A stretch of 64,000 bases of DNA from an uncultured Pseudokineococcus sp. (GTDB taxonomy: Bacteria; Actinomycetota; Actinomycetes; Actinomycetales; Quadrisphaeraceae): assembly GCF_947499845.1 (NCBI RefSeq), contig NZ_CANMPM010000010.1, positions 62,001 through 126,000 of the forward strand. The letters run 5' to 3'. The translations under genes and the position numbers were made by a program. A model generated the notes under the pieces. The model was given only the letters and a program-made list of their open reading frames with translations. It was not told where the DNA came from and did not search any database. Shown here piece by piece: positions 16,971-31,831 of the stretch (the stretch's first letter is position 1; each line of letters starts with the position of its first letter).

Positions 16971-18152
16971 ATGCGCATCCTGGTCCTGGGTGGAGACGGT
17001 TACCTGGGGTGGCCGACGGCCATGTACCTGTCCGCCCGCGGTCACGACGTCGGCGTGCTCGACAACGGCCTGCGGCGCCAGTACGACCACGAGCTGGGCG
17101 CCGGCAGCCTCGTCCCCATCGAGTCGATGGCGACCCGCGTGCGCGCCTGGCGCGAGGTCAGCGGGAAGGCCATCGCCTCCTACACGACCGACCTCTGCGA
17201 CGCCGACGGCCTCTACGCCGTCCTGCGCGAGTTCGCCCCCGACGCCGTCGTGCACTTCGCGGAGCAGCGGGCGGCGCCGTACTCGATGATCGACCGCAAG
17301 CACGCCGTGCACACGCAGGTCAACAACGTCGTCGGCACCCTCAACCTCATGTACGCGATCGGCGAGCTCGACCGCGACGTGCACGTCGTCAAGCTCGGCA
17401 CGATGGGCGAGTACGGCCAGCCGAACATCGAGATCGAGGAGGGGTGGCTCGAGGTCACCCACAAGGGCCGCACCGACCGGATGATGTTCCCCAAGAAGCC
17501 GGGCAGCTTCTACCACCTCAGCAAGGTGCACGACTCGCACAACCTCGAGTTCGGCTGCCGCATCTGGGGTCTGCGCGTCACCGACCTCAACCAGGGAGTC
17601 GTGTACGGCCAGGAGACCGACGAGACGGCGCTCGACCCGCGCCTCGCCACCCGGCTCGACTACGACTCGGTCTTCGGCACGGTCATCAACCGCTTCGCCA
17701 TCCAGGCCGTGCTCGGCGAGCCGCTCACGGTCTACGGCGGCGGCTCGCAGACCCGCGCGACGATCGACATCCGCGACACCGTCGAGTGCATCCGCCTGGC
17801 CTGCGAGAACCCGGCCGACCGCGGCGAGTTCCGCGTCTTCAACCAGGCGACGGAGAAGTTCTCCCTCTCGCAGATGGCCGAGACGGTGCGGTCCGCCTAC
17901 CCCGGCGTCGCCGAGGTCGTCCACGTCGACAACCCCCGCGTGGAGATCGAGGACCACTACTACAGCTTCGTCCACACGGCGCTGGAGTCCCTCGGCCTCC
18001 AGCCGCACACGCTCTCCGACACGCTGCTGACGTCGATGTTCAAGGTCGTCGAGGAGCACGCGCACCGGGTGGACCGCGAGGCCATGAAGCCCGTCGTCGA
18101 CTGGCGCCGCGCCGCCAACGAGGCCCCCGCCCTGCGCTTGTCCGGCTCGTGA
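16971..18152 (+). CDS. sqdB: UDP-sulfoquinovose synthase (SQD1/SqdB family)
   Basis: Converts UDP-glucose and sulfite to UDP-sulfoquinovose. 393 residues, the usual length, collinear with plant SQD1: GGDGYLGWPTAMYL, VVHFAEQRAAPYSMIDR, KLGTMGEYGQPNIEIEEGW, FYHLSKVHDSHN, TDLNQGVVYG, DIRDTVECIRLA and PRVEIEDHYY. The SDR catalytic residues are T144, Y181 and K185, matching T145/Y182/K186 of SQD1. ATG with GAGAGGGAG 5 bases upstream. The stop overlaps the next epimerase by 4 bases. No SqdX/SQD2 transferase is in the window, so the sulfosugar may enter a glycan or a lipid via the neighbouring glycosyltransferases. Confidence 0.93.
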   Translation: MRILVLGGDGYLGWPTAMYLSARGHDVGVLDNGLRRQYDHELGAGSLVPIESMATRVRAWREVSGKAIASYTTDLCDADGLYAVLREFAPDAVVHFAEQRAAPYSMIDRKHAVHTQVNNVVGTLNLMYAIGELDRDVHVVKLGTMGEYGQPNIEIEEGWLEVTHKGRTDRMMFPKKPGSFYHLSKVHDSHNLEFGCRIWGLRVTDLNQGVVYGQETDETALDPRLATRLDYDSVFGTVINRFAIQAVLGEPLTVYGGGSQTRATIDIRDTVECIRLACENPADRGEFRVFNQATEKFSLSQMAETVRSAYPGVAEVVHVDNPRVEIEDHYYSFVHTALESLGLQPHTLSDTLLTSMFKVVEEHAHRVDREAMKPVVDWRRAANEAPALRLSGS

Positions 18153-19144
18153 GCGCCGCGACGGGGGCGGCCGGGGGGCCGCGCGTCCTCGTCACGGGCG
18201 CCTCGGGCTTCGTCGGCCGCCACGTCGTCCGCGAGCTGCGCGCCGCGGGCGCCGTGGTGAGCGCGGTCGACCGCACCGAGCACCCGGACGTCCCCACGAC
18301 CCTCGGGGACCTGCGCGACGCGGGCGTCCGCGAGCGGGCGGTCGTGCCGGGGCTCGACGCCGTCGTGCACCTCGCCGCCATCACGTCCGTGCTCGGCTCG
18401 GTCGAGCAGCCGGCCGAGACGACGCAGCTCAACGTCGTCGCGACGGCGGGCCTGCTCGAGCTGTGCCGCGAGCGCGGCGTCGGCGCCTTCGTGCTGGCGT
18501 CGACCAACGCCGTCGTCGGCGACGTGGGCGCGGGCGCGGACGGGCGCGGCACCATCACCGAGGCGCTGCCGCTGCGCCCCCTCACGCCGTACGGCGCGAC
18601 GAAGGCCGCCGGCGAGATGCTCCTGTCGGGGTACGCGGGCGCCTTCGGGCTGCGCGCGCCGGTGGTCCGGCTCACGAACGTCTACGGGCCCGGGATGCGC
18701 GCGAAGGACAGCTTCGTGCCGCGGCTCATGCGCGCGGCGGCCGAGGGCCGCGGCGTCGTCGTCTACGGCGACGGCGAGCAGCGGCGCGACCTCGTGCACG
18801 TCCACGACGCCGCCCGCGCGCTCGCGCAGGCCGCCCTGGGCTGGCCGTCGGGGCCGGTGATCATCGGCGGGGCGCGCTCGTACACCGTCAACGAGATGGT
18901 CGCCGCCGCCCGCGAGGCCACGGGCGCGCCGATCCCCGTCGACCACCAGCCGGCCCGGCCGGGCGAGATGCCGGCCGTCGTCGTCGACGTCTCCCGCGCG
19001 CGCTCCCTCGGCTACGCGCCGTCGACCGCGCTCGCCGAGGGCATGGCGACCGTGTGGCCCGACTTCCGGCCCGACGGCGGGGGCGGGGCCGACGGCGGGG
19101 CTGCTGCGGGCGCCGGTGGGGGCGCGCGTGGCGACGTCGCCTGA
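18149..19144 (+). CDS. NAD-dependent sugar epimerase/dehydratase (extended SDR)
   Basis: 331 residues. The NAD motif is GASGFVGRH, the catalytic triad appears as STNAV and YGATKAAGE (Tyr-x3-Lys), and the substrate-binding segment is RLTNVYGPG followed by RDLVHVHDAARA. Typical of UDP-glucose/GDP-sugar 4-epimerases; exact substrate unknown. The GTG start overlaps the sqdB stop by 4 bases, so the two are co-translated and probably work on the same nucleotide-sugar pool. The tail after about residue 300 is Gly/Ala-rich and overlaps the next start. Confidence 0.88.
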   Translation: MSAATGAAGGPRVLVTGASGFVGRHVVRELRAAGAVVSAVDRTEHPDVPTTLGDLRDAGVRERAVVPGLDAVVHLAAITSVLGSVEQPAETTQLNVVATAGLLELCRERGVGAFVLASTNAVVGDVGAGADGRGTITEALPLRPLTPYGATKAAGEMLLSGYAGAFGLRAPVVRLTNVYGPGMRAKDSFVPRLMRAAAEGRGVVVYGDGEQRRDLVHVHDAARALAQAALGWPSGPVIIGGARSYTVNEMVAAAREATGAPIPVDHQPARPGEMPAVVVDVSRARSLGYAPSTALAEGMATVWPDFRPDGGGGADGGAAAGAGGGARGDVA

Positions 19145-20834
19145 GGTGGTGGTCCGCGCCCGCCCCGTCGAGGCCGGGGCGGCTCCCGCTCGGAGCCGGC
19201 TGGCGGGGGACTGGCCGCTCGGCGTGCTCCTCGCCGCGGCGATCGCCGTCCGGGTCCTCGCCCCCTCCGCCGTCGAGGGTCGGCTCGAGGAGGTCGTGGC
19301 CGGGCTGGTGGGGGCCGTCGCGGCGGTCCTCGTGGCCCACCTCGCCGTCCGGTGGGGCGCCTGGCGGTGGCTGGCCGCGCTCGCCGCGCTGCCCGCGGCC
19401 GTCGGCCCCGCGCAGGTGGCCGCGAGCGGACGGGGGCTCCTCGAGCCCCTGCTCGTCCTCGTCGTCGCCGCCGGGCTCGCCGCTGTCCTCTGGCGGGCGT
19501 CGGCCGGGCTGCTGGCCTCGGCCGGCGCTCTGCTGGCCGCGGTGACCGCCTCGCTCGTGCTCCTCGGCCTGTCGGCCGGTGGCGGCCGGGGCCCGCTCGC
19601 CGTCCTCGCGCCCCTGGCGCGCGAGGGCGCCCTCGACGTCGGCGGGCAGCTGCAGGGGCCCTGGGCCTCGGACGCGCTGACCGGGTCGGGGACGGGCCCG
19701 CTCGTGACGACCGAGGTCGTCGTGGCCGCCCTCGGCCTGCTCCTCGCCCTGGCCGCCGCAGCGGGCCTGGGCCGGGCGCGTCCCTCGCGCCTGCGGCGCA
19801 CCGCGCTCGTGCTCGCCGTCGTGCCGCTGCTCTTCGCCGCCGGCGCGCTCGTCGACGGCGTCACCCCAGCCGTCGTACTGCCGGCGCTCGCGGTGCTGCC
19901 GGCGGCCGGGGCCGTGGGCCTCACCGCCCTGCTGCGCGGGCGCCGCGGACGCCGCTCCGGGCCGGTGCCGCCCGACGACGTCGACCGCGCCGCCGTCGCC
20001 GACCTCCACGCGCGGGTGGGCGTCCCCGAGCTGCCGCCCGTGGCGATCGTCATCGCGGCCTACGACGAGGCGCCGGGCATCGGCGCCGTCCTCGCGGGCC
20101 TGCCCGCCGAGGTGCTGGGCCTGCGGACCGCGGTCGTCGTCGTCGACGACGGCAGCACCGACGGCACGGCGGAGGCCGTCGCCGCGTCGGGCCGCGCGCT
20201 CGCCGTCGCCTGCCCCGCCAACCGCGGCCAGGGCGCCGCGCTGCGTCTCGGCTACCGCGTGGCCCGCGAGCACGGCGCCCGCTACGTCGTGACGACCGAC
20301 GCCGACGGCCAGTACGACGTCGGCGACGTCCCCGCCCTGCTGCGGCCCGTCGTCGAGGGCGAGGCCGACTTCGTGTCCGGCTCGCGGCGCCTCGGGCACC
20401 AGCACACGCGCGACCGGGTGCGCCGCACGGGCGTCCACGTCTTCGCGTGGGTCGTCAGCGCGATGTCCGGGACGCGGGTCACCGACACCTCGTTCGGGCT
20501 GCGCGCGATGCGCGCCGACCTCACCGGCGTCGTGACGCTGCGCCAGCCGCAGTACCAGTCGTCCGAGCTCATGCTCGGGGTGCTCTCGCACGGCTACCGC
20601 GTGCGCGAGGTCCCGGCGACCATGCACGTGCGCAGCGCCGGCGCCAGCAAGAAGGGCCGCAACCTCGTGTACGGGTCGCGGTACGCGCGCGTCGTCGTCG
20701 GCACGTGGTGGCGCGAGGGCCTGCTCACCCCGGCCGACGAGGTGGCCCCCGCGCTGCGGGGCTCCGCGCTGCGGGGCCGCGCGCCGGGGGGCTCCGGCGG
20801 GGCCGCACCCGCGGCCCCCGCTCCGGCGCCGTGA
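19116..20834 (+). CDS. Membrane-anchored GT2 glycosyltransferase (polyprenyl-phosphate-sugar synthase-like)
   Basis: 572 residues. The N-terminal half (about 30-285) has eight or so hydrophobic segments. The C-terminal GT-A domain (about 305-545) has VAIVIAAYDEAPGIG, VVVDDGSTDGT and TTDADGQYDVGD, with the Asp pairs for nucleotide and metal, as in dolichol-phosphate-mannose synthases and GtrB. It probably charges polyprenyl phosphate with a sugar for use outside the membrane. The GTG at 19116 overlaps the epimerase by 29 bases; GTG at 19128 is an alternative. The fusion of a polytopic N-terminal domain to DPM-like GT2 is less common than the reverse order. Confidence 0.82.
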   Translation: MGARVATSPEVVVRARPVEAGAAPARSRLAGDWPLGVLLAAAIAVRVLAPSAVEGRLEEVVAGLVGAVAAVLVAHLAVRWGAWRWLAALAALPAAVGPAQVAASGRGLLEPLLVLVVAAGLAAVLWRASAGLLASAGALLAAVTASLVLLGLSAGGGRGPLAVLAPLAREGALDVGGQLQGPWASDALTGSGTGPLVTTEVVVAALGLLLALAAAAGLGRARPSRLRRTALVLAVVPLLFAAGALVDGVTPAVVLPALAVLPAAGAVGLTALLRGRRGRRSGPVPPDDVDRAAVADLHARVGVPELPPVAIVIAAYDEAPGIGAVLAGLPAEVLGLRTAVVVVDDGSTDGTAEAVAASGRALAVACPANRGQGAALRLGYRVAREHGARYVVTTDADGQYDVGDVPALLRPVVEGEADFVSGSRRLGHQHTRDRVRRTGVHVFAWVVSAMSGTRVTDTSFGLRAMRADLTGVVTLRQPQYQSSELMLGVLSHGYRVREVPATMHVRSAGASKKGRNLVYGSRYARVVVGTWWREGLLTPADEVAPALRGSALRGRAPGGSGGAAPAAPAPAP

Positions 20835-20876
20835 GCGTCACCCGGTCGTGACCCGCGGCACCCGTCCCGGCCGCCG

Positions 20877-22358
20877 ATGCCGCACCCTGGTGCCGTGACG
20901 ACGACCGCCGGCCGCCGGGCGAGCGCCCACCCCGCGCCGCCGTCGCCCGGGCCCGCCCGGGCAGGAGGGTCGCGCCGCTGGCGGGCGCGCCTCGGCGACC
21001 ACGCGCCCTTCCTCGTCGTCCTGGGCTTGGGGCTGCTCGTGCGCCTCGTCGTCACGGTCGCCTTCTGGCCGGCGATGATGGTGAGCGACGCCCCGTCCTA
21101 CCTGCGCTTCCTCGGCGACCTGCAGCCGAGCCTCGAGCGCCCCGACGGGTACGGCCTCCTCTTCCTCCTGCCGCTCTCGCTCGTCGCGGACGACGTCGCC
21201 CTCTTCGTCGGCGTCCAGCACGTGCTCGGGCTCGCGGCCGCCACGGGCCTGTACGCGCTGCTGCGCCGCTGGGGCGTGGGGCGCTGGTGGGCCGCCGCCG
21301 GCGTCCTCCCGCTGCTGCTCGACGCGATGGTGCTCGTCCTCGAGCACGGCCCGCTCAGCGACGCCGTCTTCCTCGACCTCCTCGTGCTGGCGGTCGTCCT
21401 CCTCGGCTGGCGGCGCCGGCCCTCGCCCGGCGTCGCGCTCGCGGCCGGCCTCGTCATGGGCTGCGCCGTCCTCGTCCGCCAGGTCGGGACGCCGCTCGTC
21501 CTCGCCGGCGCCCTCTTCTGCCTGCTCGCGGCGTCGGGGCGGTGGCGGCGCCTCGTGCCGGTGGCGCTGCTCGTCGTCGGTTTCGTCGTGCCCGTGGGCG
21601 CCTACAGCGCGTGGTTCGCCGGGACCTACGGCAGCCCCGGGCTGTCCGGCATCGGCGGGGTCTCCTCGTACATGCGCACGACGACGTTCGTCGACTGCGA
21701 CCGCATCGAGCTCGCGCCGTACGCGCGGGTGCTGTGCCCGCCCGAGCCGGTGGGCGAGCGGCGCGACCCCACCGACTACGGCTGGTACGAGATCGGCAGC
21801 GGCGTGCAGTCGCTCGTCGTCCCGCCCGGCGTGGACCGGCAGGCGGTGCTGCAGGACTTCGCCCGCCAGGCGCTCGCCGCCCAGCCGCTGGACTACGCGC
21901 GGGTCGTGCTGCGCGACGTCGCCCTCGGCTTCGACCCGTTGCGCACCGACCGCTTCGAGTACAACACCACCTTCAAGTGGAAGTTCTCCACGTACGTCGA
22001 CCGCGAGCCGACGCCGTGGACCGAGCCCGGCTTCGCCGACCACGGCGGCGTCCAGCAGCAGACCCGCCAGCCGTGGGCGGACCTCCTCGTGGCCTACGAG
22101 AAGGTCGTCTACACGTGGGGGCCGGTCGTCCTGCTGAGCCTCGTCGTCGGGGCGGTCGGAGCCCTGTCCCCGCGCGCCGGTGCCGCGCGGCCCCTCGTGC
22201 TGCTGCTCGTCCTCGTCGGCTTCGGCCTGTCGGTGCTGCCGGACATCACCACCCAGTTCGTGTGGCGGTACCAGCTGCCCGCGGTCGTGCTGCTGCCCGT
22301 CGCCGCCGTCCTCGCCGGCAGCGCCCTGCGGCACCGGGGCCCGCGCCGGGTTCCCTGA
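20877..22358 (+). CDS. Polytopic membrane protein, GT-C-like mannosyl/arabinosyl-type transferase
   Basis: 493 residues with about ten hydrophobic segments. The first extracytoplasmic loop contains MMVSDAPSYLRF with an acidic residue in the position used by GT-C enzymes that take sugar from polyprenyl phosphate. A large soluble loop (about 255-400) contains four Cys-poor, Trp/Tyr-rich stretches. It fits as acceptor-side enzyme for the sugar made by the upstream GT2. ATG at 20877; a GTG 18 bases later is also possible. No ribosome site is clear. Function is inferred from topology and context only. Confidence 0.65.
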   Translation: MPHPGAVTTTAGRRASAHPAPPSPGPARAGGSRRWRARLGDHAPFLVVLGLGLLVRLVVTVAFWPAMMVSDAPSYLRFLGDLQPSLERPDGYGLLFLLPLSLVADDVALFVGVQHVLGLAAATGLYALLRRWGVGRWWAAAGVLPLLLDAMVLVLEHGPLSDAVFLDLLVLAVVLLGWRRRPSPGVALAAGLVMGCAVLVRQVGTPLVLAGALFCLLAASGRWRRLVPVALLVVGFVVPVGAYSAWFAGTYGSPGLSGIGGVSSYMRTTTFVDCDRIELAPYARVLCPPEPVGERRDPTDYGWYEIGSGVQSLVVPPGVDRQAVLQDFARQALAAQPLDYARVVLRDVALGFDPLRTDRFEYNTTFKWKFSTYVDREPTPWTEPGFADHGGVQQQTRQPWADLLVAYEKVVYTWGPVVLLSLVVGAVGALSPRAGAARPLVLLLVLVGFGLSVLPDITTQFVWRYQLPAVVLLPVAAVLAGSALRHRGPRRVP

Positions 22359-22394
22359 GGCGCCGGGTCCCCTGGAGGGGCGCGTCGCCCGCGC

Positions 22395-23192
22395 TCAGCG
22401 GTCGGCGGCTCCCGGCAGCACCTCGGCCACGCCGAGCACCGACTGCCCGAACGGCGGGGTGACGACCTTCTCCAGCAGCCGGGTCACCGGCACGACGACG
22501 CCGTCGTAGACCCGCACGAGGCCCGGCTTCGGCGTCCCGACCCCGCCGCGCCGCACGGCCGCCCACCAGGCGACCCCGCCGAGGAGGTTGACCGGCCGGA
22601 CGAGGCGGGGCGCGAGCCCGGCGCGCTCGAAGGCGCCGCGCAGCGTCGCCGGCGTGTACCGGCGCACGTGCCCGACGCGGCGGTCGAAGTCGCCGTAGAG
22701 CTGCATGTACGCCGGCACGAACATGACGACGGTGCCGCCCGGCTCGACGAGGCGGGCGAGGCGCCGCAGGGCGCCGGCGTCGTCCTCGATGTGCTCGAGC
22801 ACGTTGGAGGCGAGCACGGTGGCGACGGGCGCGCCGAGGTCGGGCAGCTCGCCGTCGAGGTCCAGGCGCCGCGCCTCCACCTCGGGGCGGTCGGCGAAGC
22901 GCCGCGCGATCTGCGCCACCGCCCCGGGGTCGACGTCGGTGACGACGTGGCGCTCGAGGTCCATGCCGCGCGCGAAGGTCTCGGCCAGCTCGCCGAGCCC
23001 GGCGCCGACCTCGAGCAGCGAGCGGCCGACGTGCGGGCGCATGAGCTCGAGCTGGTACGCCTTGTAGTTCGGCTGGCCCGCGCCCGAGCCCTCCTCGAGG
23101 GTGCGCCCGGTCGCCTGCGAGAAGGCGCCGGCGCCCTCGTCCGGGGCGTCCGCGGGCTGCCGGGCCGCCGGCCCGGCGGGGGCGTCGGTCAT
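22395..23192 (-). CDS. SAM-dependent class I methyltransferase
   Basis: 265 residues. SAM motif I reads LLEVGAGLGELA, the acidic loop VVTDVDPG, motif II VLASNVLEHIEDD. Methyltransferase_11/23 type. The ATG overlaps the GtrA stop by 4 bases, so the pair is an operon convergent with the GT-C-like gene. In such cell-envelope clusters these enzymes usually methylate a sugar or lipid carrier; the target is not known. Confidence 0.85.
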   Translation of the reverse strand: MTDAPAGPAARQPADAPDEGAGAFSQATGRTLEEGSGAGQPNYKAYQLELMRPHVGRSLLEVGAGLGELAETFARGMDLERHVVTDVDPGAVAQIARRFADRPEVEARRLDLDGELPDLGAPVATVLASNVLEHIEDDAGALRRLARLVEPGGTVVMFVPAYMQLYGDFDRRVGHVRRYTPATLRGAFERAGLAPRLVRPVNLLGGVAWWAAVRRGGVGTPKPGLVRVYDGVVVPVTRLLEKVVTPPFGQSVLGVAEVLPGAADR

Positions 23193-23794
23193 CGGGTCTC
23201 CTCGCTCGGGCTGTGACTCGGGCTGTGACTCGGGTTCTGGCTCGGGCTGCGACTCTGGTCGGGCGGGGGGCTCGACCGGGGGCCGCGCGCCCCGGGCAGG
23301 CGGCGGAACAGCTGGTGCAGCACGGCGTAGCGCACGAGCGCCATGACGGCGTACACGCCGAGGAAGGCGACGTTGACGCCGAGGACCCGCACGGCGTCCG
23401 TGGCCCCGGCGCGCTCCAGCAGGGCCTCGGCGAGGGCCGTGGCGCCGGACGCCAGCGCGAGCGTGAGCAGGACGACGGCCACGTAGGGGCCGAGCTCGCG
23501 GCGCACGCTGGGCCGGCCCTCGACGCGCCACACCCAGGTGCGGTTGATGACGTAGTTCGGCACCGCGCCGGCGAGCCACCCGAGGAGGGTGGACGTCGTC
23601 GTCGACGCGCCGAGCGGGCCGTAGAGGAGCGCGAAGGCGACGGCGCTGCAGACGGTCGCGACGCCGGACCCGCCCGCGTACCGCAGCAGGCGCGCCCCGT
23701 GGGCGGACACGAGCCGCGGGACGAGCGCCCGCTCCCGGGAGCCGGCGCCCGACGACGCCGCGGACGGCGGCGTGGACGTCCGGTCGCAGGGCAC
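23189..23794 (-). CDS. GtrA-family membrane flippase-like protein
   Basis: 201 residues with four TM segments (about 37-60, 67-88, 100-122, 133-155) and the GtrA-type motif PNYVINRTWVW. GtrA proteins are linked to translocation of polyprenyl-phosphate sugars, which suits the GT2 gene nearby. GTG at 23794. The C-terminal tail is Ser/Pro/His/Gln-rich and encoded by a short degenerate tandem repeat of a CTCGGGCTGTGA-type unit. Confidence 0.85.
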   Translation of the reverse strand: MPCDRTSTPPSAASSGAGSRERALVPRLVSAHGARLLRYAGGSGVATVCSAVAFALLYGPLGASTTTSTLLGWLAGAVPNYVINRTWVWRVEGRPSVRRELGPYVAVVLLTLALASGATALAEALLERAGATDAVRVLGVNVAFLGVYAVMALVRYAVLHQLFRRLPGARGPRSSPPPDQSRSPSQNPSHSPSHSPSEETR

Positions 23795-23903
23795 CTGCGG
23801 AGCCTAGGCGCACCGCCCCCGCCCGCCTCCCCGGTGCTCGCGGTGCGCGCGCCTCCGGGGCGTGTCGCCCCTGGCGCCCGCAGCCGCTCCACCGGGCGTC
23901 ACC

Positions 23904-23909
23904 TAGCGT
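23904..23909 (+). promoter_or_regulatory. -10 box of a probably leaderless transcript
   Basis: TAGCGT lies 6 bases before the GTG at 23916, and there is no ribosome site. This spacing is typical of leaderless mRNAs in actinobacteria. Confidence 0.5.
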
Positions 23910-23915
23910 GGGCGC

Positions 23916-26072
23916 GTGGTGCAGGCGGCGCAGGCAGCGGGGACGGCGCCCGCTGCTGCGCCGGTCGAGCCCGTGGGTCCTGCGACGCCGGCCGCGACCG
24001 GGCGCCTCGAGCGAGGGGTCGGCCGCGTGCTGGACGCCGCGGTGCTGCTCCTGGCCACGTGGACGCCCGTCTACCACCTGTGCCTCCTGCTGCGGTGGGG
24101 CGTCGGCGCCGCCGTGGCGCTCGAGGTGCTCGCGCTCGCCGGGGTCGCCGTCGCGCTGCGGCTGACGCGCTCCCGCCGCAGCGGGCGCACGGTGCCCGCG
24201 CCCGGCGCCGCCACCGCGACGGTCACCGTCGGCCCCGGCAGCAGCGGCGGGCCGGTCGCCGGGGCCGACGAGCGTCCTCCGGGTCGACGCCGCGCGCGCG
24301 GGCGAGCCCCGGCCCTCGTCGTCGCCCTCGCGCTCGCCGAGGCCGTCCTCCTGGCCGTCCGCGCGCCGTGGCCGCTCGTGGCCGCGCTGTGGCTGGCGGC
24401 CGCGGCGGCGGGGACGGCCACCGCTGTCCGGGCGCTGCGGCGGGCGACCCGCTCGGGGGACGAGCCGGCGGGGGCGGTGGCGCGGCCGGGCCGGTCGGGC
24501 GTCGTCGTCGCGCTCGTCTGGGCGGCCGCGCTCGCGGTGCTGGCCGGCGCGACCCGGTGGCCCAACCCGGACGACCTCTACTACGTCAACCTCTCGCAGT
24601 GGACGGCCGAGCGGGGCACCTTCCCGCTGCGCGACACGATCTTCTCCGACGAGGTCTTCCCCATGACGAGCTTCCCGCCCGTCGCCTCCTACGACGGGCT
24701 GCTGGGGACGCTCGCCCACCTGCTCGGCGTGCCCGCGGCGTCGGTGGCCTACCTCGTCGTGCCGTCGGTGGCGACGGCGCTGTCGGTGCTCGCCCTGTGG
24801 CGCCTGCTGCGGGCGTGGCGGACGCCGCTCGTCGCGGTGGCACTGAGCCTCGCGCTCGTCTTCCTCCTGTGGGACGGCGGGCCGGGCTACGCGGCGCCGG
24901 GCAACCTGTTCCTCATCCGGCTGTGGCAGGGCAAGGTTGTGCTGCTGTGCCTGCTGGTGCCGCTGCTCCTCGTCGCGCTGCTGCGCCACGTCGAGCGCGC
25001 GCTGGCCACGGGCCGCTCGGCGCGCCGCGACCTGGCGGCCCTGGCCGCGGGCGGCACCGCGGCGGTGGGCCTGTCGACGACGGGCATCTTCCTCGTGCCG
25101 GTGCTCGCCCTCGGCGGGGTGGCCCCGCTCCTCGTCGCCCGCCGCTGGCGCGCGGCGGCGACGGGCTTCGTCGTGGCGTCGGCCTACCCGCTGGCCGCGG
25201 GCGCCGTGACCCTCGCCGTGGGCGGCCGGTCGGCCGACGACTTCGCCGAGCGCCGCCTCTTCCGCTTCGACCCGTCCTGGTTCGGGCACGAGATCTTCCG
25301 CGACGGCGTCTACGGGCTCGTCGGCGTCGCGGCGGTGCTGCTCGGGGCGCTGCTCGTGCCCTCGCGGGCGGCGCGGGTGACGACGGGCGTGCTCGCCCTC
25401 GTCGTCGGGGTGACCTTCGTGCCCGGGGTCACGCAGCTGGCGTACGACCTCGTCGGCCTCGGCCCGACGCTGTGGCGGATCAGCTGGGCCGTCACCGTCG
25501 CCGCGCTCGTCGGCGTCCTCGGCGCTCGCCTCGCCGCCGGCGGCCGCCGACGGCGCCTGCTCCTGCCCGCCGGCGTGGCCGCCGCGCTCGTCGCCGCCGG
25601 ACTGCCGATCTGGTCCCCGGCCAACGGCGTGTCCCTCGACTGGCCGCCGCGGTACGAGCGCGGGCTGGGGTCCGTCGTCGTCGCCGAGGACGTCATCGCC
25701 CGCGCCGCGCCGGGCGACACGGTGCTCCTGCCCGAGCAGGACGCCATCACCCTCACCGTGCTCACCACGCGCGTGAAGACCGTCGCGCCGCGCGACTACT
25801 TCCTCGACCAGCTGAGGGACGTGCCCGGCTTCCGCTACGAGCAGCGGCTGCTGCTCGTGCGCTTCGCGAACGGCGAGGTCGTCTTCGCCCCGGGCGACGA
25901 GGTGGTCGCTGCGCTCGACGACCTCGACGTCGACCAGGTCTGCCTGCTCTTCCCCGAGGAGGGCGAGCCGCCGTACCGGACCACGCGGGTCGTCGAGCGC
26001 GCGCAGCTCCTGCTCGGCGCGGGCTTCACCCCGACGCAGCGCGTGGGCCGCACGTCCTGCTACGCCCGCTGA
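23916..26072 (+). CDS. Large polytopic membrane protein (DUF6077-like, possible glycosyltransferase)
   Basis: 718 residues with 12 or more hydrophobic segments and a C-terminal soluble part (about 560-718). The segment WPNPDDLYYVNLSQW puts an Asp-Asp pair in an extracytoplasmic loop, reminiscent of GT-C catalytic acids. I recognise the family only loosely as an uncharacterised actinobacterial membrane family. GTG start right after a -10 box suggests a leaderless mRNA, divergent from GtrA. It probably belongs to the envelope-glycan cluster; no substrate is claimed. Confidence 0.7.
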   Translation: MVQAAQAAGTAPAAAPVEPVGPATPAATGRLERGVGRVLDAAVLLLATWTPVYHLCLLLRWGVGAAVALEVLALAGVAVALRLTRSRRSGRTVPAPGAATATVTVGPGSSGGPVAGADERPPGRRRARGRAPALVVALALAEAVLLAVRAPWPLVAALWLAAAAAGTATAVRALRRATRSGDEPAGAVARPGRSGVVVALVWAAALAVLAGATRWPNPDDLYYVNLSQWTAERGTFPLRDTIFSDEVFPMTSFPPVASYDGLLGTLAHLLGVPAASVAYLVVPSVATALSVLALWRLLRAWRTPLVAVALSLALVFLLWDGGPGYAAPGNLFLIRLWQGKVVLLCLLVPLLLVALLRHVERALATGRSARRDLAALAAGGTAAVGLSTTGIFLVPVLALGGVAPLLVARRWRAAATGFVVASAYPLAAGAVTLAVGGRSADDFAERRLFRFDPSWFGHEIFRDGVYGLVGVAAVLLGALLVPSRAARVTTGVLALVVGVTFVPGVTQLAYDLVGLGPTLWRISWAVTVAALVGVLGARLAAGGRRRRLLLPAGVAAALVAAGLPIWSPANGVSLDWPPRYERGLGSVVVAEDVIARAAPGDTVLLPEQDAITLTVLTTRVKTVAPRDYFLDQLRDVPGFRYEQRLLLVRFANGEVVFAPGDEVVAALDDLDVDQVCLLFPEEGEPPYRTTRVVERAQLLLGAGFTPTQRVGRTSCYAR

Positions 26073-28529: not shown

Positions 28530-30461
28530 GTGAGCAGTCCGTCCGCCACCTCCGCCGGCGGTGCCCCGCCGCGGGCGCGCCGCCTCCGCCGGACGGCGGC
28601 GGCCGCGCTCGTCGGCGCCGCCACGGCCCTGTCCGCCGCGCTGCCCGTCTCGCTCGTCGCCGCGCCGGCCGCGTCCGCCGACGCCCCGAGCCGGGAGGAC
28701 GTCTACGTCAAGCGCGTCATGCACCGGATGACGCTGCCGCAGAAGGTCGGCCAGATGATGACCGGCTACGTCTACGGCAGCGACGCGCGCACGTCCGACC
28801 CGCGGAACACCGCCCTGTACGGGGTCGCGACGCCCGCGGAGGTCGTCGAGGAGTACGCGCTCGGCGGAGTCGTCCACTTCGCGTGGACCGACAGCTTCCG
28901 CGAGGGGCCGGAGCAGCTGGCCCGGCTGAACGACGGGCTCCAGGAGGCGGCTCGTGGCGCGAACCGGCGCGTGCCGCTGATGATCTCGACCGACCAGGAG
29001 ACCGGTCTCGTGGCCCGTCTCGGTCCGCCCGCGACCGGCTTCCCGGGCGCCATGGCGCTGGGGGCGGGGCGCAGCCCCGAGGACGCCCGCCGAGCGGCCG
29101 CCGTCACGGGCACCGAGCTGAGGGCCGTCGGCATCACGCAGGACTACGCGCCGGTCGCCGACGTCAACGTCGACCCGGCCAACCCCGTCATCGGGGTCCG
29201 CTCGTTCGGCTCCGACCCTCAGCTCGTCGCCGACATGGTCGCCGCGCAGGTCGTCGGCTACCAGGAGGACGGCGGCGTCGCGACGTCCGCCAAGCACTTC
29301 CCGGGGCACGGCGACACGGCGACGGACAGCCACGTCGGTCTCCCCGTCATCGACCACACGCGCGAGGAGTGGGAGCGGCTCGACGCCCCGCCCTTCCGCG
29401 CCGCCGTGGAGGCCGGCGTCGACGCGGTGATGACGGCGCACATCGTCGTCCCGTCGCTCGACCCCTCGGGCGTCCCGGCGACCCTGTCGGAGCCCATCAT
29501 GACCGGCGTCCTGCGCGAGGAGATGGGCTTCGAGGGCGTCATCACCACCGACTCCCTCGAGATGGAGGGCGTCCGGACGATGTTCGGCGACGGCGAGGTG
29601 GCCGTCCGCGCCGTCGAGGCGGGCGCCGACGTGCTGCTCATGCCGGCGCAGCCGCGGGTCGCCGTCGACGCCCTGCTCGGGGCCGTGGCGTCCGGTCGGC
29701 TCACGGAGGAGCGCCTCGACGAGAGCGTCGAGCGCGTGCTGCGCCTGAAGTGGCACCGCGGCGTCGTCGCCGACAGCTCCACGGACGTCGACGCCGTCCT
29801 GTCGACCCTCGGCTCGGCGGAGCACCAGGCCGTGGCGCAGGAGGTCACCGACCGCACCACGACGCTCCTGCGCGACGACGCCGGCCTGCTCCCCCTCGCG
29901 GGCGGCGAGCAGCGGGACGTCCTCGTCACCGGGTGGGGCGCGGCCCCGGCCGCGGCGCTCGGCGCGGCGCTCTCCGAGCACGGCGACGTCGTCGAGGTGC
30001 AGGAGGTCGGCGCGTCCGCGCCCGACCCGACCGACCCGCCGGACCCGGGCGACCCCGGCGGCGGCCCGGCGGACCCCGCGCTGGACACGGCCGTCGCGGC
30101 GGCCGAGGAGGCCGACCTGGTCGTCGTCCTGACGAACGGGGCGTGGAGCTCCCCGCGCGGCGACCGCCAGCGCCGGGCCGTCGCCGAGCTCGTCGCGACG
30201 GGCACCCCCGTCGTCCACGTCGCCGTCCGCGACCCGTACGACGTCGCCCACCTGCCCGGCGTGACGACCTCGCTCGCCACCTACTCGACGACGCCGGTGG
30301 CGATGCGCTCGCTCGCCCGCGTGCTGCACGGGGACGTCGCCCCGGCGGGCCGCCTGCCCGTCGACGTGCCGGCCGCCGACGGCTCCGGCGTGCTGCTGCC
30401 CCTCGGGTGGGGCCTGACCTACGGCGCCGACGGCGCGACCTCGCTGGGAGGGGCGCGATGA
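28530..30461 (+). CDS. nagZ: Exported beta-N-acetylglucosaminidase NagZ (GH3)
   Basis: Removes non-reducing GlcNAc from muropeptides. 643 residues. A Sec signal peptide (1-50, cleavage after ASA) exports it, as in Bacillus rather than the cytosolic Gram-negative NagZ. The catalytic domain has KHFPGHGDTATDSHVGLP (255-271) with the Asp266/His268 acid/base dyad, and nucleophile D341 in VITTDSLEM. A second alpha/beta domain with a Pro-rich linker (about 470-485) follows, as in two-domain Bacillus NagZ (YbbD). GTG with GGGAGC 7 bases upstream. First gene of a three-gene operon with 4-base overlaps. Confidence 0.94.
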   Translation: MSSPSATSAGGAPPRARRLRRTAAAALVGAATALSAALPVSLVAAPAASADAPSREDVYVKRVMHRMTLPQKVGQMMTGYVYGSDARTSDPRNTALYGVATPAEVVEEYALGGVVHFAWTDSFREGPEQLARLNDGLQEAARGANRRVPLMISTDQETGLVARLGPPATGFPGAMALGAGRSPEDARRAAAVTGTELRAVGITQDYAPVADVNVDPANPVIGVRSFGSDPQLVADMVAAQVVGYQEDGGVATSAKHFPGHGDTATDSHVGLPVIDHTREEWERLDAPPFRAAVEAGVDAVMTAHIVVPSLDPSGVPATLSEPIMTGVLREEMGFEGVITTDSLEMEGVRTMFGDGEVAVRAVEAGADVLLMPAQPRVAVDALLGAVASGRLTEERLDESVERVLRLKWHRGVVADSSTDVDAVLSTLGSAEHQAVAQEVTDRTTTLLRDDAGLLPLAGGEQRDVLVTGWGAAPAAALGAALSEHGDVVEVQEVGASAPDPTDPPDPGDPGGGPADPALDTAVAAAEEADLVVVLTNGAWSSPRGDRQRRAVAELVATGTPVVHVAVRDPYDVAHLPGVTTSLATYSTTPVAMRSLARVLHGDVAPAGRLPVDVPAADGSGVLLPLGWGLTYGADGATSLGGAR

Positions 30462-31831
30462 GCGGGCGGCAGCACGTCGCGGCCAGCCGCCGGTCCTTCC
30501 TCGGCGCGCTCGGCGCCGGCGCGGCCGCGGCCCCCGCCGCGGTGCTGGGGAGCGCGCTCCCGGCGTCGTCCTCCGGCGCCCCCTCGGCACCGGGACGGCC
30601 GGTGCGCACCGGCACCGGCCGGCGGCGCCCCCGCGTCCAGACGGGCGCCGACCGGCTCGCGGCGGACGGCTTCGCCGCGCTCGCCGGCCAGCGGGTCGGG
30701 GTCATCACCAACCCGACCGGCGTGCTGGCCGACCTGCGGCACGAGGTCGACGTCATGGCCGCGAGCGGCGCCGTCGACCTGCGCGCCGTCCTGGGACCCG
30801 AGCACGGCTTCCGCGGTGCCGCCCAGGCGGGCGAGTCGGAGGACACCTCCGTCGACGAGCGCACCGGCGTCACCGTCTACGACGCGTACGGGGCGGGCGC
30901 CGACGACTTCGCGCGCCTCTACGACGAGGCGGACGTGGAGACGGTCGTCTTCGACATCCAGGACGTCGGTGCCCGGTTCTACACCTACGTCTGGACGATG
31001 TACGACGCCATGGTCGCCGCGGCGACGACGGGGCGGCGCTTCCTCGTCCTCGACCGGCCGAACCCCGTCGGGGGCGACGCCCGCGGCCCGATGATGACCG
31101 ACGAGTTCCGCACCTTCGTCGGCAACCAGCGCATCGCCCAGCAGCACGGGATGACCGTGGGCGAGCTGGCGGCCTTCCTCGACGGCGAGCTCATCACCGA
31201 GGAGACCGGCGGGGCGCGCCTCGGGGACCGCCTCGAGGTCGTGCCGATGCGCGGCTGGCGGGGCAGCCTGCCGTGGGAGGACACCGGGCTGCCGTGGGTG
31301 CCGCCGAGCCCCAACGTGCCGACGCCCGACGTCGCCCTCGCCTACACGGGCACGTGCTGGTTCGAGGGCACGCTCATGTCCGAGGGCCGCGGCACGACGA
31401 CGCCCTTCCAGACGGTCGGGTCGCCGGGCGCGGACTGGCGCTGGCCGGAGGCCGTGGCCGGGTACGACCTCGACGGCCTCGCCGTCCGCGAGGCGTCCTT
31501 CACCCCGACCTTCTCCAAGCACGCCGGCGAGGTCTGCCACGGGCTGCAGCTGCACGTCACCGACCCGGTCGGGGGCGTCGACGCGATCACCGCCGCGACG
31601 GCGATGCTCGTGGAGGCCCGTCGACTCGTCGACGGCTTCGCCTGGCGGGAGGACGCCTACGACCCGGCCCGACCCTTCTGGGTCGACAAGCTGTCGGGCT
31701 CGAGCCGGCTGCGCGAGATGGTCGACGCGGGCGCCTCGGTCGCCGAGGTCACGGCGGCGTGGGCGCCCGAGCTGGCGGCGTTCGAGGCGCAGCGCCGGCC
31801 CTACCTGCGCTACCCGCGGGGGCTGTCGTGA
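30458..31831 (+). CDS. namZ: Exo-beta-N-acetylmuramidase NamZ (DUF1343, GH171), Tat-exported
   Basis: Releases MurNAc from the non-reducing end of glycan fragments. 457 residues. The Tat signal SRRSFLGALG is at 10-19. Family motifs: VGVITNPTG, GPEHGFRGAAQAGE with E115-H-G, VFDIQDVGARFYTYVWTM, LDRPNPVGG, LPWVPPSPNVPT and FEGTLMSEGRGTT. In Bacillus this gene (ybbC) sits beside nagZ and amiE, exactly as here. The ATG overlaps the nagZ stop by 4 bases; the stop overlaps the next gene by 4. Confidence 0.93.
   Translation: MSGRQHVAASRRSFLGALGAGAAAAPAAVLGSALPASSSGAPSAPGRPVRTGTGRRRPRVQTGADRLAADGFAALAGQRVGVITNPTGVLADLRHEVDVMAASGAVDLRAVLGPEHGFRGAAQAGESEDTSVDERTGVTVYDAYGAGADDFARLYDEADVETVVFDIQDVGARFYTYVWTMYDAMVAAATTGRRFLVLDRPNPVGGDARGPMMTDEFRTFVGNQRIAQQHGMTVGELAAFLDGELITEETGGARLGDRLEVVPMRGWRGSLPWEDTGLPWVPPSPNVPTPDVALAYTGTCWFEGTLMSEGRGTTTPFQTVGSPGADWRWPEAVAGYDLDGLAVREASFTPTFSKHAGEVCHGLQLHVTDPVGGVDAITAATAMLVEARRLVDGFAWREDAYDPARPFWVDKLSGSSRLREMVDAGASVAEVTAAWAPELAAFEAQRRPYLRYPRGLS

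Follow-up and report, generated by a model that had tools for sequence, protein, structure and literature searches.

Sulfoquinovose is known chiefly as the head group of the photosynthetic sulfolipid and as a constituent of archaeal N-glycans. The Agl3 pathway of Sulfolobus acidocaldarius, which delivers it to the N-glycan, uses the glycosyltransferase Agl16 and a lipid-pyrophosphate oligosaccharide. We analysed a stretch of 64,000 nucleotides (the window) from an uncultured Pseudokineococcus sp. (contig NZ_CANMPM010000010.1, positions 62,001 to 126,000), in which a gene for a predicted UDP-sulfoquinovose synthase, sqdB, heads a region of seven genes at 16971-26072. The synthase belongs to the same family as that of the SqdB/SQD1-SqdX/SQD2 route to sulfoquinovosyl diacylglycerol (SQDG). 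The locus differs from that route in having genes for a family 2 glycosyltransferase (GT2), a GT-C glycosyltransferase and a GtrA protein beside sqdB and no family 4 glycosyltransferase (GT4) of SqdX grade. As in the Agl3 pathway, the synthase would serve a surface glycan rather than SQDG, but the locus carries a predicted GT2 resembling dolichyl-phosphate mannose (DPM) synthase and a GT-C protein of the ArnT/Pmt type. A mycobacterial neighbourhood likewise combines an epimerase (Rv3634c), a polyprenyl-phosphate GT2 (PpgS, Rv3631) and a GtrA-like helper; Rv3631 and Rv3632 make the galactosamine substituent of arabinogalactan (PMC5389812). The GT2 and epimerase subfamilies of the window, in contrast, were found only with sqdB, and the sugar would be sulfonated. 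We assign a probability of about 0.68 to the reading that the locus represents a pathway, conserved in actinomycetes, that links a sulfosugar to a polyprenyl carrier, replacing the use of sulfoquinovose in SQDG.

SqdB and its conserved neighbours

The preliminary description of the region had proposed that SqdB is collinear with plant SQD1 and keeps the Thr/Tyr/Lys triad of short-chain dehydrogenases/reductases (SDR). Both points were borne out: SqdB aligned with Arabidopsis SQD1 (1qrr) over residues 2-382 (E=2e-146), and the triad is present exactly as claimed at T144, Y181 and K185. H95, R100, M145, E147 and Y148 are also retained, matching positions important in archaeal Agl3, in which alanine at His95, Arg101, Met145, Tyr182 or Lys186 abolished activity and changes of Glu147 or Tyr148 impaired it, while T144A remained active (PMC4388408). 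SqdB is thus homologous to SQD1 along its full length, its catalytic residues are intact, and it is predicted to form UDP-sulfoquinovose.

Among 84,980 species genomes scanned, at least 80 sqdB loci were detected, 54 of them from actinomycetes. Among the matches listed, the actinomycete loci came from Nocardioidaceae, Kineosporiaceae, Streptosporangiaceae, Thermomonosporaceae, Pseudonocardiaceae, Actinopolysporaceae and others, and the nearest named SqdB locus was that of an uncultured Pseudokineococcus (95% identity). Neighbourhood conservation, which the preliminary description had named as a check, came out in favour of its proposal. GT2 lay near sqdB in 50/54 of the actinomycete loci, the remaining four being on contigs that end close by; the epimerase was likewise found in 50, GtrA in 45, the GT-C protein (family GTC1) in 32, the methyltransferase in 23 and the DUF6077 protein in eight (Pseudokineococcus, Quadrisphaera and Nocardioidaceae). 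The simple gene caller missed the GT2 of one genome (G150, locus L117), which was recovered by a genome search. The order of the partners is reshuffled between lineages, indicating that the linkage to sqdB has been maintained despite rearrangement. The other 26 listed loci, mostly from Acidimicrobiales and Bacillota-type metagenome-assembled genomes (MAGs), showed no such partner except GtrA in six. Within these groups, loci L055-L082 (minus L060, L064 and L079) have an sqdB of 60-66% identity and neither GT2 nor GT4 in the flanking DNA examined; in several of them a membrane protein and a citrate-synthase-like open reading frame (ORF) adjoin sqdB.

Specificity was evaluated in 247 genomes of the class, each at least 90% complete, with thresholds of E<=1e-60 for sqdB, E<=1e-50 for the GT2 domain and E<=1e-65 for the epimerase. 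sqdB was present in ten genomes. GT2 orthologues were detected in seven, spanning six families; all seven were sqdB-positive, with GT2 no more than about 3 kb away from sqdB, and none of the 237 sqdB-negative genomes had one. Epimerase orthologues occurred in four genomes, all sqdB-positive and near sqdB (0/237 in sqdB-negative genomes). Fisher's test gave p ~1e-11 for GT2 and 1e-6 for the epimerase, although these genomes share ancestry and are not independent. An eighth sqdB genome (G085) carries a more distant GT2 (42%) 2.6 kb from sqdB. Within the family of the window's organism, GTC1 was found in all five sqdB genomes and in G005, whose contig ends inside GT2, and in no other genome.

In a maximum-likelihood tree built from 87 SqdB proteins, the window's SqdB grouped with GT2-linked relatives in a large clade. 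Seven loci (L068, L071, L074, L075, L077, L080 and L082), for which the simple gene caller gave no sqdB ORF, were left out of the tree and of the partner counts. Four GT2-linked proteins (L113, L114, L116 and L117) fell into a distant clade with alphaproteobacterial SqdB and one GT4-linked SqdB. The split between the two clades was strongly supported; the program gave a long-branch warning, and the finer detail is unsure. The same GT2 partner accompanies two well-separated SqdB clades.

A divergent sqdB (45%) was observed on a Rhodococcus qingshengii plasmid (NZ_CP054208.1, locus L099, 9001-13998). Downstream of it lie genes for a 639-aa exported-looking protein and a processive-type GT2 of 624 aa (PF13641, Chitin_synth-like), and upstream one for a SulP anion transporter; this locus could make a sulfosugar polymer.

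Epimerase, GT2 and GT-C proteins

The preliminary description had coupled sqdB to an epimerase and a DPM-like GT2, and both the gene overlaps and the Pfam assignment agree with this. The start of the epimerase gene overlaps the sqdB stop codon (GTGA), and the end of the epimerase gene is overlapped by the start of the GT2 gene at 19128; sqdB is thus translationally coupled to both. The Glycos_transf_2 domain occupies residues 307-436 of the GT2 protein, in which the DDG and DAD motifs are present. Its best NCBIfam matches were PpgS, dolichyl-P hexose transferase and AglJ, and its solved relatives are ArnC and DPM synthase. The match to PpgS (NF058614) reached 94 bits against a curated cut-off of 370, and we class the protein by sequence as DPM/PpgS-like, not as PpgS.

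The N-terminus of the GT2 protein, as well as that of its Nocardioidaceae relatives, aligned to the GT-C profile (hhalign 99.9%, E=2.9e-32). In Pseudonocardiales, a single ORF combines an N-terminal GTC1 domain with a C-terminal GT2 (e.g. L024:6916-9198, 761 aa). Since its N-terminus matches the GT-C profile, the window's protein looks like a shrunken copy of this fusion, and a complete GT-C gene lies downstream as an ORF of its own. That GT-C protein had no Pfam match. Its AlphaFold model (27 sequences) reached a pLDDT of 89.6 and resembled Pmt4, ArnT and oligosaccharyltransferase over residues 31-492 (VIA Z 20-22; Foldseek E 1e-3 at best). D71, the Asp of the first external loop, and E156 were invariant in the 27 sequences. 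By this model the protein has a GT-C fold of the ArnT/Pmt type; protein O-mannosyltransferases, ArnT and oligosaccharyltransferases use polyprenyl-linked sugar donors. The proposal of several GT-C-like membrane proteins stands for this one, whereas the model of the DUF6077 protein (pLDDT 52.5) was too poor for use, and that protein is perhaps a second GT-C enzyme. In Nocardioides mangrovicus (L011:13193-17229), two GTC1 copies surround the methyltransferase and GtrA, which suggests that the acceptor-side enzyme has been duplicated.

MoeE5, a UDP-glucuronate 4-epimerase, is the nearest solved relative of the epimerase, itself a generic SDR of the GalE/MoeE5 type. In the related BcUGAepi, Thr126, Ser127, Ser128 and the main chain of Thr178 hold the substrate carboxylate, and Arg185 binds the product carboxylate (PMC7984243, PMC12338863). 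The substrates of both these enzymes and of the window's epimerase would be negatively charged at C6. The window's epimerase keeps the first of these residues as Thr119, but Asn120 and Ala121 replace Ser127 and Ser128 in 20/20 aligned homologues, so that the carboxylate-binding Thr-Ser-Ser of UDP-uronate 4-epimerases is only partly kept; close to the Arg185 position, where the alignment has a one-residue insertion, Lys186 is invariant. Such a pocket would suit an anionic, bulkier C6 group such as CH2-SO3-, although this is only suggestive. The enzyme probably inverts C4 of UDP-sulfoquinovose.

The generic character of this SDR also fits an oligosaccharide of mixed composition, in which the epimerase acts on another donor, sulfoquinovose is one residue only and GT2 may carry a different sugar. 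The several glycosyltransferase and GT-C genes at the locus are consistent with such a product, as is the mycobacterial precedent of Rv3634c, a UDP-Gal/GalNAc 4-epimerase encoded near Rv3631 and Rv3632 (PMC5389812). However, the confinement of the epimerase and GT2 to sqdB genomes fits a donor dedicated to a sulfosugar better than a common sugar, and we regard a mixed oligosaccharide as unlikely.

GT4 genes and the sulfolipid route

If the locus served ordinary SQDG synthesis, SqdB would feed a GT4 sulfoquinovosyltransferase encoded elsewhere, and the GT2 and GT-C genes would belong to an unrelated envelope locus next to it. The absence of SqdX/SQD2 from the cluster, as described earlier, was confirmed, and GT4 searches were extended to the whole genome (3.72 Mb, 97.6% complete; the window lies on its contig C10). 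Two sqdB genomes of the same order (G222 and G213) have a GT4 directly after sqdB instead of GT2, and a similar GT4 (42%) lies beside sqdB in a Roseiflexaceae MAG (L064). These GT4s are presumably SqdX, as in known sqdB-sqdX operons, and an SqdX-like profile was built from three such sqdB-adjacent GT4s. The best GT4 of the window's genome (G000:C3:265330), which directly precedes a second GtrA-like ORF (L122:1501-3320), is 36-41% identical to these proteins and is the point in favour of SQDG. It scored 270 bits with the profile, against 682 for G222 and 717 for G213, whose scores are inflated because their own sequences helped to build the profile. In a PDB search, it had no strong relative.

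The distribution of such GT4s argues against a role in sulfolipid synthesis. The same band of 240-310 bits is filled by sqdB-negative relatives in the family and order (G007-G010, G014, G038 and G054), and G222 and G213 themselves carry a GT4 in this band besides the one adjacent to sqdB. Eight GT2-type sqdB genomes (G023, G044, G052, G059, G126, G085, G001 and G002), among them most of those outside the family, had no GT4 at E<=1e-40; a single GT4 of the lower band is present in each of G150, G004, G006 and the window's genome. Close orthologues of the window genome's GT4 were not found in its sqdB-positive relatives G004, G001 and G002. In addition, GT2 never occurred without sqdB in the 247-genome sample. 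The genome thus has no GT4 beside sqdB, none of SqdX grade was found elsewhere in it, and ordinary SQDG synthesis with a distant SqdX is not favoured; we judge it quite improbable. The overall pattern suggests that sqdB has two alternative partners: in most actinomycetes GT2 together with GT-C, in some a GT4 that presumably serves SQDG. This favours the polyprenyl route.

Predicted pathway and its meaning

In the proposed pathway, SqdB would convert UDP-glucose and sulfite to UDP-sulfoquinovose, and the coupled epimerase would probably invert C4 to give a donor of the UDP-6-deoxy-6-sulfo-galactose type. GT2 would load the sulfosugar onto polyprenyl phosphate on the cytoplasmic side, and GtrA may help to flip the lipid-linked sugar. 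A GT-C enzyme, joined in this lineage by the DUF6077 protein, would then transfer it to an extracytoplasmic acceptor, which may be a wall glycopolymer, a glycolipid or a glycoprotein. Comparative genomics supports the predicted polyprenyl route well; the chemical steps, the product of the epimerase, the direction of flipping and the acceptor are proposals that we infer. Of the suggestion that a sulfosugar is carried on polyprenyl phosphate rather than into SQDG, the core persists as the best-supported reading, given the conserved sqdB-GT2 linkage and the lack of an SqdX-grade GT4, while the methyltransferase drops out as a specific component.

Several observations weigh against this pathway, in addition to the inflated GT4 scores. 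SqdB covered the whole NCBIfam model UDPsulfquin_syn (NF041015), but its 449.6 bits (E=9e-135) fall short of the curated cut-off, 575; we therefore regard it as a homologue for which the same activity is predicted and not as a curated equivalog. Some loci of the distant clade pair sqdB with GT2 but lack the epimerase, which indicates that the epimerase is not essential to the core. The methyltransferase was present in 16/247 class genomes, two sqdB-positive and 14 sqdB-negative (p=0.13). A GT2 for another sugar, merely linked to sqdB, may also be compatible with the sequences.

The low NCBIfam score, together with the 5,6-ene formed by SQD1 and Agl3 when sulfite is lacking (PMC8987622, PMC4388408), would also suit an SqdB homologue that adds no sulfite in vivo and gives another product (e.g. 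a 5,6-ene) leading to a non-sulfonated sugar, but its full-length closeness to SQD1 and the retained catalytic residues make this very unlikely.

The features of the region are listed in Table 1; each gene named in the preliminary description lies where it had been placed, and Pfam confirmed the methyltransferase and GtrA. The two overlap on the minus strand, the methyltransferase start with the GtrA stop. Its place beside sqdB notwithstanding, the methyltransferase was rejected as a dedicated partner because of its frequent occurrence in sqdB-negative genomes and is regarded as accessory. The methyltransferase family also occurs in sqdB-negative Streptosporangiaceae, in a setting common to several (L128-L132), and in G027, which has no sqdB at the threshold used, it adjoins a GTC1 homologue (34-39%). 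The GC content of the window is ~78%, and the region had no match in an anti-phage defence library. Further along, at 28530-31831, an ORF resembling a glycoside hydrolase family 3 beta-N-acetylhexosaminidase is followed by a DUF1343-like ORF, by eye a possible peptidoglycan-recycling pair.

Table 1. Genes of the sqdB region, in window coordinates
Feature	Position	Strand	Description
sqdB	16971..18152	+	393 aa; UDP-sulfoquinovose synthase family (SQD1/SqdB/Agl3)
SDR epimerase	18149..19144	+	331 aa; Pfam Epimerase E=5e-54; predicted UDP-sulfoquinovose 4-epimerase
Apparent shrunken GT-C + DPM/PpgS-like GT2 fusion	19128..20834	+	568 aa; predicted polyprenyl-phosphate sulfosugar synthase
GT-C glycosyltransferase (GTC1)	20877..22358	+	493 aa; predicted user of polyprenyl-P-sulfosugar outside the membrane
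S-adenosylmethionine-dependent methyltransferase	22395..23192	-	265 aa; Pfam Methyltransf_12 E=3e-13; accessory
GtrA/DPMS transmembrane protein	23189..23794	-	Pfam GtrA_DPMS_TM E=3e-10; predicted lipid-linked sugar translocation
DUF6077 multi-pass membrane protein	23916..26072	+	718 aa; Pfam DUF6077 E=7e-19

Searches of the open-access literature, with subscription journals largely outside the scope, covered SqdB or sulfoquinovose in connection with actinomycetes, envelopes or polyprenyl pathways, as well as sulfonated wall glycopolymers, and turned up no title or abstract describing such a route; this silence is a weak sign of novelty. We tentatively propose, at somewhat less than even odds, a new class of actinomycete sulfonated envelope glycan based on a polyprenyl-phosphate-linked 4-epimer of sulfoquinovose, with a dedicated sulfo-epimerase, GT2 and GT-C, which would be widespread in Nocardioidaceae, Kineosporiaceae, Streptosporangiales and Pseudonocardiales. 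Many actinomycete soil bacteria probably place a sulfonated sugar in the cell envelope by means of this locus. If so, non-photosynthetic Gram-positive soil bacteria would use sulfoquinovose through carrier chemistry of another kind. This would add to what is known a sulfonated glycan of the surface, polyprenyl-phosphate sulfosugar as a new donor and a soil source of sulfosugar, and would offer a handle on the function of unannotated GT-C and DUF6077 proteins.

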